From an uncultured Bacteroidota bacterium (lineage in GTDB: Bacteria > Bacteroidota > Bacteroidia > UKL13-3): a stretch of DNA of 64,000 nucleotides. A model generated the notes under the pieces. That model searched no databases and had not been told where the DNA came from. It worked only from the letters and a program-made list of their open reading frames with translations. Each line of letters starts with the position of its first letter. Position 1 is the first letter of the stretch. Positions 38,338-41,340 of the stretch are shown piece after piece. The DNA is taken from NCBI GenBank assembly GCA_903850915.1, contig CAINMV010000024.1:1-64000 (forward strand). The letters are read 5' to 3'. The position numbers and the translations under genes are program-made.

Positions 38338-39054
38338 ATGTTAATTGCAACGTTATACATGGAAGACTTTTTATCCCTTTATTCAAAGATTGAAAACCCA
38401 ACATTAGAGATGGTGTTTTTCACTTTTCTACTTTCCTTTTTGCTGGGGGTGCTTATTGCTGTAATTTACACCAAAACAACACCAAACACGATTAAAACTC
38501 CGAATTTTGTGCAAGCAATGATATTAAGCACAATCATAGCCTCTACTGTTATTCAATCCACTAACAATAGTATCAGTTCTGGGCTAGGTATACTAGGCGC
38601 TCTCACAATTCTAAACTTCAGAACAAACTTTAGAGACCCCCGAGATATCATTTTTATGTTTGCCGCTATTAGCACCGGAATTGCCTGTGGTTCTTATGTC
38701 TTCCTAATTGCTATTGTTGGTATAGTAGGCTTTTCCATAATTGCTATTGTACTTAGCTTCACTCCTTTCTATCTCGGAAACCACTTAGTTTGGGAGCTCC
38801 GATTGCGGTTTGATAAGAAACAAGATAAAGAAACTTTTGTTGAAGAAACATTGACTCTTTTTTGTAAGAAATACACTAATGAGAGTATTAGAAATGATGT
38901 CTCGAAAGAAAATATTCCCTTTTTAGAATGCGAGTACGTGGTAATTCTGAAAGACGATTCAGAAGCCAAAAAGTTTCTAAGTGTTCTTGAAGAAGGCGGA
39001 GTAATGGTAAGAAAATACAACAAGCAAAACACAGAATTCACATCCAACGATTGA
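38338..39054 (+). CDS. DUF4956 family inner-membrane protein
   Basis: A 238-residue membrane protein. The first 145 residues hold four to five hydrophobic helices (about 24-44, 58-76, 104-120, 121-143), followed by a soluble cytoplasmic domain (about 150-238) with a ferredoxin-like look (FLECEYVVILKDDSEAKKFL). GLGILGALTILNFRTNFRDP is the hallmark of DUF4956, a family related in sequence style to MgtC. An ATG at 38359 (MEDFLSLY) is an alternative start. DUF4956 genes are known near CotH and VTC-type polyphosphate genes in other bacteria; none is here. It begins an operon with an adaptor and a TolC-like gene and overlaps the next ATG by one base (TGATG). Function is unknown. Confidence 0.85.
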   Translation: MLIATLYMEDFLSLYSKIENPTLEMVFFTFLLSFLLGVLIAVIYTKTTPNTIKTPNFVQAMILSTIIASTVIQSTNNSISSGLGILGALTILNFRTNFRDPRDIIFMFAAISTGIACGSYVFLIAIVGIVGFSIIAIVLSFTPFYLGNHLVWELRLRFDKKQDKETFVEETLTLFCKKYTNESIRNDVSKENIPFLECEYVVILKDDSEAKKFLSVLEEGGVMVRKYNKQNTEFTSND

Positions 39055-40046
39055 TGAAGAAGATAAACATATTATACGTGTTTTGGATAATTGCATTAAT
39101 CCTTTTCATTTGGCTTATGTTAAACCTGAAAACACAAGTCACGAAGACCATTTTTGGAACTGCAACCACCCAAGTTTATTCTATGAATGTAGAATACGCG
39201 ACCATCGTGAATGAATGTAAGGTGCACCAAGGAGATAGAGTAAAGAAAGGTGATACACTGCTGGTATTGCTTCGTGGCGAAATGGATAAGAGCATTAGCG
39301 ATGTCTTCTCGATGATAAATCAACTTGACGTTGATCGCAATGCGAAAAATCAAATCTTGGATAAAGAAGAGGCTATTTTCAATGCACAACAAGCATCAAA
39401 AATTAGTGCTATTAATGCACAAATTACTATCCTCGAAAAAGAAATCGAGATTCAAAATAATTTATTATACGCTATTGGTCAAGAAAAAACAAAACCTACA
39501 AACAACATTAAACAGTTGGAGCTGGCTGGATTAAAAGAGTCTTTAGAACAGCTAAGGATTCAAAGTATAGAACAGAAGAAATCTTATAATACACAGCGCG
39601 AAGGGAACAACAAAAGTTATGAGGCGCGTTTGGCAACAAATAAAAATGACATTGACTACTATCAACTTGAAAAACATAAAATGATTGTAGTGGCTCCTTG
39701 CGATGGTATTGTAGATAATGTTTATGTGCTCCCCAAAGATATGGCGCCCCAATACAAAGAACTTATTAGAATTAATAGTGTTACACCGAATCGAGTTACA
39801 GGTTTTATTCACGAAAGTATGGCAATACCATTTCAGCTTGGCGATAGTGTACTACTTACCTCTGCAGCACGTCAAGAAATATCGTGTAAAGGGATGATTA
39901 TTGGAAATGGGAATCATCTCGTAGAGCTACCTTTAAGATTACGTAAATTTGTTGAACTTAGGGCTTGGGGACGAGAAATATTCGTACAAATGAATCCTGA
40001 TAATAATTTTTACATCGATGAGAAAATTCTAATTCAGATAAATTGA
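39054..40046 (+). CDS. Membrane-fusion (HlyD-like) periplasmic adaptor
   Basis: A 330-residue adaptor protein with one N-terminal membrane helix (about 7-24). The split lipoyl (barrel-sandwich) motif is visible as NECKVHQGDRVKKGDTLLVL (about 53-72) and VVAPCDGIVDNVYVLP (about 220-235). A long charged coiled-coil lies between them (about 75-215: EKEIEIQNNLLYAIGQEKTK, LKESLEQLRIQSIEQKKSY), and a beta-barrel domain follows. This is the layout of HlyD/EmrA-type adaptors that link an inner-membrane transporter to an outer-membrane channel. The start at 39054 overlaps the DUF4956 stop (TGATG), so the two are translationally coupled. No ABC, RND or MFS transporter gene is adjacent. Confidence 0.87.
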   Translation: MKKINILYVFWIIALILFIWLMLNLKTQVTKTIFGTATTQVYSMNVEYATIVNECKVHQGDRVKKGDTLLVLLRGEMDKSISDVFSMINQLDVDRNAKNQILDKEEAIFNAQQASKISAINAQITILEKEIEIQNNLLYAIGQEKTKPTNNIKQLELAGLKESLEQLRIQSIEQKKSYNTQREGNNKSYEARLATNKNDIDYYQLEKHKMIVVAPCDGIVDNVYVLPKDMAPQYKELIRINSVTPNRVTGFIHESMAIPFQLGDSVLLTSAARQEISCKGMIIGNGNHLVELPLRLRKFVELRAWGREIFVQMNPDNNFYIDEKILIQIN

Positions 40047-40056
40047 GCTCTCCGTT

Positions 40057-41340
40057 ATGATGCGTAAGACTTTTCATCTCATTCTGTTTTTGCTTTGTTT
40101 CTCGGGTGAAATTTTCGCTCAGACTGTGTCTCTTGAGCAAATATTGGCGACTTCACTAAATGATGAACGCGTTACTCGAGATGCGCAAATGGAACAATTT
40201 ACTAACAACTTAAACTTCAATCTGCCTCCGGTTAAAAAAATTGAGTTACGCTTAGGGCTTAATGGGAATAACACCTCTGACACCCTAGATGGCAATTTGA
40301 GAAATGAAGATTATTATTCGTTAAATTTAACGACCAACAAGCGTAAAGAAATGAAACTTCAAAAGCAAATTAAGCCTGCTCAAGTTAATTTGTTTAATAA
40401 AGAAAAAGAGATGTTTCAAATGCAGGCCATTCAAGACCGTTATACTGTGCTTACAAGTCTTTATTATAATACAGAAGCACTTAAAAAGAAAAAGGAATTA
40501 CAAGATCTCTTAAATAAAAAAAATGAACTTCTACAGAACCTTCTGAACGAAGGTATTACTATAAAAATCAATGATGCCTTAGATACTGAAAAAGATTTGG
40601 TGCTTGTATTCAATATGATTCAAGAGGAAGAAAATGCAATAACCATTAACAAAGCGAAGCTGTGTCAATTTTTCAGTACCTCAAAAGAACTTTTTGTTGA
40701 CTTTAAGGGTATGATTACACCAAAAAAAATCATTGCAAATAATATTTTGTTAAAACAAGATAGTATCAACCAACATCCATCCGTGATTTATAAAGAAGCG
40801 CAATATCAACTTGCTGCTGCTAACAATATTTTAGAGCGAGCTCAAAACACAAATGTGCTAAACTCATTTCAAGTGGGATATAATCGTCCGGTTTACACCT
40901 CCGAAATATTAAAAAAATTTAAGCCAGAGAACACCTTGACATTCCGGGTAGGTATTAGTATTCCTATAATGGGCAATTATAATTTTAATCGGAACAACAC
41001 CAACATTCAACAATATAATGCGCTACTTAACTGGCAGACATCGCAGGTAATACAAGATAAAACTATTAATGTACAAGAGTCGCGCTTTGAAAACAGTATA
41101 CGACAATATAATGCTTTAATAGATATTTATTCCAAAAGCATCATTTCGAGGTTATTAGAGAATGAAAAGGTAGTTGCGCAAAGTACTGCACTCGAATTAA
41201 TTGATATGCGAATTGCGAAGAAGAAAATAGAGATAAATATGCTTCTAAGTGCTGGAACACTCACTCAAAACTACATTCAATTGCTTGAGAATAAAGGCCT
41301 TTTGAATTATTCAACTAGAAGTCAATACCTTTTAGAATAA
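40057..41340 (+). CDS. TolC-like outer-membrane efflux protein
   Basis: A 427-residue exported protein with a signal peptide (MMRKTFHLILFLLCFSGEIFAQ), long amphipathic helices and short strand segments. The layout is that of the outer membrane factor (TolC) family: TVSLEQILATSLNDERVTRD at the start, LGLNGNNTSDTLDGNLRNED, VGISIPIMGNYNFN and a helical C-terminal half. Similarity to TolC is structural rather than by strict motif, so confidence is moderate. It is the third gene of the DUF4956 operon, 10 bases after the adaptor stop, and would provide the outer-membrane exit duct. No terminator hairpin was recognised downstream. Confidence 0.8.
   Translation: MMRKTFHLILFLLCFSGEIFAQTVSLEQILATSLNDERVTRDAQMEQFTNNLNFNLPPVKKIELRLGLNGNNTSDTLDGNLRNEDYYSLNLTTNKRKEMKLQKQIKPAQVNLFNKEKEMFQMQAIQDRYTVLTSLYYNTEALKKKKELQDLLNKKNELLQNLLNEGITIKINDALDTEKDLVLVFNMIQEEENAITINKAKLCQFFSTSKELFVDFKGMITPKKIIANNILLKQDSINQHPSVIYKEAQYQLAAANNILERAQNTNVLNSFQVGYNRPVYTSEILKKFKPENTLTFRVGISIPIMGNYNFNRNNTNIQQYNALLNWQTSQVIQDKTINVQESRFENSIRQYNALIDIYSKSIISRLLENEKVVAQSTALELIDMRIAKKKIEINMLLSAGTLTQNYIQLLENKGLLNYSTRSQYLLE

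Follow-up and report, generated by a model that had tools for sequence, protein, structure and literature searches.

What do genes for a periplasmic adaptor and a TolC-like outer-membrane protein do when the gene beside them encodes a DUF4956 membrane protein and not a pump? This question is raised by positions 38338–41340 of the window, a stretch of 64,000 nucleotides from an uncultured Bacteroidota bacterium. In one published account, tripartite systems are energised by ABC, RND or MFS transporters (PMC8277102). We propose that the trio may be an undescribed route for exporting a polymer, for example polyphosphate.

Open reading frames, Pfam matches and structure comparisons bear out the three-gene set that the earlier note had described from the sequence alone. 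The genes all lie on the forward strand and encode an MgtC-related DUF4956 membrane protein (38338..39054, 238 aa), an HlyD/EmrA-type periplasmic adaptor (39054..40046, 330 aa from the ATG) and a highly diverged TolC-like outer-membrane factor, or OMF (40057..41340, 427 aa). The first two genes overlap by one base in the string TGATG, where the last base of the first gene's TGA (39052–39054) is also the first base of the adaptor's ATG (39054), and 10 bases separate the adaptor from the OMF gene.

The first gene matched the DUF4956 family PF16316 with an E-value of 3e-11 and 43.6 bits, above the curated gathering cut-off of 30.6. Its true start is probably the second ATG, at 38359, as suggested by the near invariance of M8 among relatives. 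Four to five helices plus a cytoplasmic domain had been predicted for this protein, and the AlphaFold model (pLDDT 85) agrees, with an N-terminal helix, five transmembrane (TM) helices at residues 23–141 and a C-terminal alpha/beta domain of cytoplasmic type at residues about 149–231. This domain is ACT-like, with the order beta-alpha-beta-beta-alpha-beta. Foldseek and VIA-align, which hardly probed the TM region, returned matches to the ACT-like domain only; the Foldseek matches included the C-terminal domains of MgtC proteins 2lqj (rank 3) and 7qa5, and none had an E-value <0.001. A sequence search of the PDB with the DUF4956 and OMF profiles gave no significant match.

Profile comparisons show that DUF4956 is distantly related to MgtC along its whole length. 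The window's protein alone scored below the gathering cut-off of the MgtC family PF02308 (14.7 bits against 31.4, E 0.04). When profiles were compared by hhalign, DUF4956 matched MgtC from related genomes at 5e-11 over 195 columns and the trio-type subset matched at 1e-8, whereas an unrelated TM family used as a control gave 0.42 and 0.21; all of these values are pairwise, without database calibration. DUF4956 thus shows the architecture of the MgtC superfamily, a TM domain followed by a C-terminal ACT-like domain, with profile homology across both. The most conserved stretch, (R/N)FRT..(R/K)D.R(D/N), falls in the interval between TM3 and TM4 and reads NFRTNFRDPRD in the window (residues 93–103; 38614..38646, forward strand). 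All 173 relatives have R95. R93 is equally constant in loci that contain a VTC domain, but the window's clade has N at this position. Should the C-terminal domain be cytoplasmic, as it is in MgtC, the basic motif would lie on the cytoplasmic side, at the mouth of the protein. Co-variation of R93/D103 with VTC was striking in raw counts, but R93 was lost only once on the tree and there were only two independent pairs, so we do not treat the pattern as evidence of co-evolution.

The second gene encodes, by profile comparison, a periplasmic adaptor of the HlyD/EmrA/MacA type. Alone, the window's protein matched the HlyD/biotinyl-lipoyl, RND_mfp and type_I_hlyD models below their cut-offs. Its family profile matched the solved structures of EmrA (4tko, 1.8e-27) and MacA (5e-20), and its parts are an N-terminal membrane anchor, lipoyl/barrel-sandwich halves and a long coiled-coil hairpin. 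The RLS/RLT motif at the tip of the adaptor hairpin is a TolC-docking motif (PMC3391258). Of 132 family members, 47 carry it, where 12 would be expected, and it was absent from the window's adaptor and from same-genus adaptors, which counts against a conduit built from the trio. In Desulfobacterota, Fibrobacterota and other groups, the adaptor carries a C-terminal extension of ~300 aa with weak matches to SdiA-regulated/DUF3616 domains (L209 1841-3856, L228 6749-8755, L231 5165-7132, L248 1822-3885 and others), probably a beta-propeller. A similar domain is encoded by a separate gene after the adaptor in L227 and L241. An apparent adaptor–VTC fusion in L033 (a 778 aa ORF) was rejected, as the adaptor match sits in another frame of the same DNA.

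The third gene had no Pfam match of its own, and its assignment comes from its relatives and its predicted structure. The OEP family PF02321 was matched by 10 of 41 family members (best 8e-10), and the family profile matched an OEP set from related operons at 1e-7. The AlphaFold model (pLDDT 89) contains the long helical barrel and beta-hairpin repeats of the TolC fold. Foldseek aligned it to TolC with an E-value of 2.9e-15 and a TM-score of 0.67, and its top matches were all of the TolC/OprM/CusC type. On this model, the gene product is a predicted TolC-fold outer-membrane factor.

No ABC, RND or MFS gene is encoded in the window's operon, as the earlier note had observed, and the same holds for the core of adaptor-containing operons in relatives, where motifs, TM counts and Pfam rule out a hidden pump. 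The energised transporter that marks tripartite efflux and type 1 secretion is therefore found in neither. The 222 non-core genes of these operons included few multi-TM or ABC genes and none that is conserved: one soluble ABC-F (L066), one MMPL and one MFS-like protein (L150 and L243, both four genes away), and a cation-diffusion-type protein in L040, recognised by sequence look only. One flavobacterial family has DUF6580 and BrkB genes upstream of the trio, with gaps of about 70–100 bases. A conserved pump in close relatives would have spoken against a pump-less set, and none was seen.

As a control, we considered the other OMF loci of the window's genome. An RND, MFS or ABC pump adjoins seven of these ten; the remaining three are one contig end, one orphan pair and one fusion of an ABC membrane domain with an adaptor. 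The orphan OMF–adaptor pair (G000:C10:178283-181027; L260 5615-8359) is followed on the same strand by genes for a CDP-alcohol phosphatidyltransferase and an MBOAT acyltransferase. The 749-aa ABC_membrane–HlyD adaptor fusion, with an OMF gene directly after it (G000:C9:16496-20136; L266 4677-8317), contained no ATPase motif that we could find, making this another pump-like set without an obvious motor. Given an orphan pair in the same genome, the absence of a pump is unusual and not unique. The steady presence of DUF4956 in the pump's place is a stronger argument than the missing pump.

This presence was observed across a wide range of genomes, so the check for a conserved trio came out in its favour. 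The trio is kept in four of four other sampled genomes of the same genus, with different flanking genes. PF16316 was found in 88 of 395 sampled Bacteroidota genomes. We took 100 of the Bacteroidota loci with some 6 kb of flank, or less if the contig ended sooner, and 65 of them have an adaptor in the operon with DUF4956, under a 300-base gap rule that misses some loci. A scan of 84,980 species gave 405 relatives of the trio-type DUF4956. Among the best 80 of these, 66 have both an adaptor and a TolC-like gene no more than 5.5 kb away on their own strand, mostly in the order DUF–adaptor–OMF, and several of the loci without the full trio are interrupted by contig ends. The trio occurs, among other groups, in Saprospiraceae, Cytophagales, Desulfobacterota, Fibrobacterota/Chitinivibrionales, Calditrichota, Delongbacteria, Planctomycetota, Bdellovibrionaceae and Thiotrichaceae. 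Adaptor-type genes account for 127 of the 659 genes lying no more than two positions from DUF4956, but for just 16 of the 1076 other genes in those loci; together with the same-genus conservation, this enrichment rules out chance adjacency.

DUF4956 adjoins an adaptor in at least eight phyla and in several gene orders. The window's layout, DUF–adaptor–OMF, is shared with one flavobacterial family and Saprospiraceae, and others are adaptor–VTC–DUF, with or without an OMF, and VTC–DUF–adaptor. In one flavobacterial family, the trio is preceded by a fixed block of BrkB, a 203 aa protein, YceI and DUF6580, and its end is overlapped by an SDR-like gene (L052, L053, L060 and about 12 similar loci).

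Gene content in these relatives points to a polyphosphate link. In the wide scan, 21 loci, from Desulfobacterota, Fibrobacterota, Calditrichota and further groups, encode a VTC domain (PF09359) within the operon. Genera of the window's family other than its own have the order lipoprotein–adaptor–VTC–DUF4956–OEP. The VTC proteins can be aligned to yeast Vtc4 with an E-value of 1e-7, and the equivalents of its residues R264, R266 and E426 are invariant among 14 VTC sequences. Mutation of these residues inactivates Vtc4, and in the eukaryotic VTC complex polyphosphate synthesis is coupled to translocation through a basic channel (PMC9911596). Many VTC-containing operons also encode a CotH kinase. 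Where no adaptor is present, DUF4956 is still paired with envelope genes of other kinds: strong-scoring, Pfam-type DUF4956 has a VTC partner and no adaptor, and DUF2490 follows VTC–DUF4956 in four of four adaptor-less loci tested (L113, L119, L152, L157). In a single case, a gene of the phosphate-selective porin family Porin_O_P follows an adaptor-less DUF4956 (L130 7533-8567).

The window's own lineage differs from these relatives. We found no VTC domain anywhere in the window's genome, in four same-genus genomes or in 16 other trio-only genomes (0 of 21), while all five VTC-operon genomes used as positive controls were positive; a VTC gene located elsewhere in trio-only genomes was thereby rejected. 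The suggestion of a polyanion or cell-surface polymer thus holds in part, as VTC and CotH do occur in relatives' operons but the window's own genome lacks any VTC. That genome does encode PPK1. On a tree of adaptor-associated DUF4956 (unrooted, SH-aLRT 87, with VTC state changing four times in total), the VTC-less Bacteroidota trios, including the window's, nest within a clade that otherwise carries VTC, a position consistent with VTC loss.

The most economical reading of the trio, in our judgement, would make DUF4956 the inner-membrane part of a conduit. The three gene products would form one envelope-spanning channel in which the MgtC-type protein stands in for an ABC, RND or MFS pump. The HlyD-type adaptor would span the periplasm and dock to the TolC-like factor, and a linear polyanion would be threaded from the cytoplasm to the cell surface. 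In the ancestral form, a VTC polymerase at the cytoplasmic mouth would use ATP to make polyphosphate, and the act of polymerisation would power export, as happens in the eukaryotic VTC complex, with no need for a separate pump. This form may persist in Desulfobacterota, Fibrobacterota, Calditrichota, Delongbacteria and other genera of the window's family. The polymerase-driven step does not apply as such to the window, given the lack of VTC in its genome and in trio-only genomes; after VTC loss, the conduit might be fed by another enzyme, such as the PPK1 present, or carry a different polymer. Gram-positives, which have no outer membrane, keep a set of DUF4956, VTC and CotH only, found in Pel loci (PMC7112168), and this fits the adaptor and OMF being a diderm extension. 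In Streptococcus intermedius, deletion of the DUF4956 gene changed the Pel level and lowered aggregation (PMC12345266). The channel function, cargo and direction assigned here to the trio are ones that we infer. That DUF4956 replaces the pump in a tripartite conduit, powered in its ancestral form by VTC polymerisation, seems to us evenly balanced between right and wrong. The fuller proposal is more tentative and somewhat doubtful: a new tripartite exporter class, with an MgtC-fold channel, an adaptor and a TolC tunnel for VTC-driven polyphosphate secretion in diderm bacteria. The window's set would descend from it, without VTC and with motor or cargo replaced.

The main rival to this conduit is a regulatory role, because MgtC is, to our knowledge, a regulator-like protein with no established transporter role. 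DUF4956 would then be an MgtC-like regulator that uses its ACT-like, ligand-binding domain to detect a phosphate-type metabolite and, in response, opens or otherwise controls an adaptor–TolC line energised elsewhere. Its MgtC kinship and ACT-like domain favour this, as does the presence of several pumps in the genome, from which a transporter could be shared. Additionally, MgtC is cited as acting on ATP synthase and PhoR (PMC12345266). However, adaptors normally adjoin their own transporter, and in these loci it is DUF4956, and no pump, that stays next to the adaptor from phylum to phylum. We consider regulation unlikely on balance, but its main support, that MgtC is not an established transporter, counts against the conduit reading, as do orphan OMF–adaptor pairs.

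A second alternative is surface modification, in which the module would modify proteins and not export a free polymer. Polyphosphate or phosphate from the inner membrane would pass through the conduit to kinases of the CotH type and to surface proteins with lamin-tail domains. Genes for CotH and lamin-tail proteins that bear secretion signals lie in or near many of the operons, and in S. intermedius a CotH-family mutant has a surface phenotype (PMC12345266). CotH genes were present in 26 of 26 genomes tested, although CotH counts are upper bounds, since some proteins tagged as CotH by the iterative search have no such domain (of 10 checked, three had lamin-tail domains only, one of these with an arylsulfotransferase domain). 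With CotH this common, proximity says little, and CotH is missing from most trio-only operons and from the window's, the four CotH genes of its genome lying elsewhere. We regard surface modification as improbable. Least probable of all, and very unlikely, is an ordinary efflux line whose ABC, RND or MFS partner has been relocated in the genome, with DUF4956 accessory or incidental, for which the orphan pair described above is a precedent but which would not lead us to expect an incidental neighbour to stay next to the adaptor across so many phyla and gene orders.

A widespread pump-less set around an MgtC relative, often joined by a polyphosphate polymerase, is a concrete candidate for the transport of polyphosphate or another polyanion across two membranes. 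With the conduit reading, DUF4956 gains a testable role, and a transport-related view of MgtC is suggested. In a search of open-access full texts, DUF4956 occurred in only three papers, and none of them describes its association with an adaptor or TolC.

Compared with HlyBD-TolC, EmrAB-TolC, MacAB-TolC and AcrAB-TolC, the window's set is alike in encoding an HlyD/EmrA/MacA-family adaptor together with a TolC-fold OMF. It differs in that MgtC-type DUF4956 replaces the ABC, RND or MFS component and in its adaptor without RLS/RLT. DUF4956 resembles MgtC/SapB (PF02308) in the profile match over the TM region and in the C-terminal ACT-like domain, but differs in its conserved motif, gene context and sub-cut-off Pfam score. 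The VTC-containing relatives resemble the eukaryotic VTC complex (Vtc1/3/4) in their retained catalytic residues and an adjoining small, basic-mouthed membrane protein. However, the bacterial membrane part is DUF4956 and not a Vtc1-type TM domain, no SPX domain was seen, and the bacterial form adds an adaptor and an outer-membrane channel; the window's set is without VTC. The streptococcal and clostridial Pel set of CotH, polyphosphate polymerase and DUF4956 (SIR_1594-1592) shares the DUF4956 homologue, SIR_1592, for which an MgtC TM domain and an ACT domain have been reported (PMC12345266), as well as the VTC and CotH partners. That set is Gram-positive, is tied to pelDEADAFG and has no adaptor or TolC. 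Its authors report no such arrangement outside Pel loci, whereas in the genomes studied here DUF4956, VTC and CotH are widespread together and occur with an adaptor and an outer-membrane factor.
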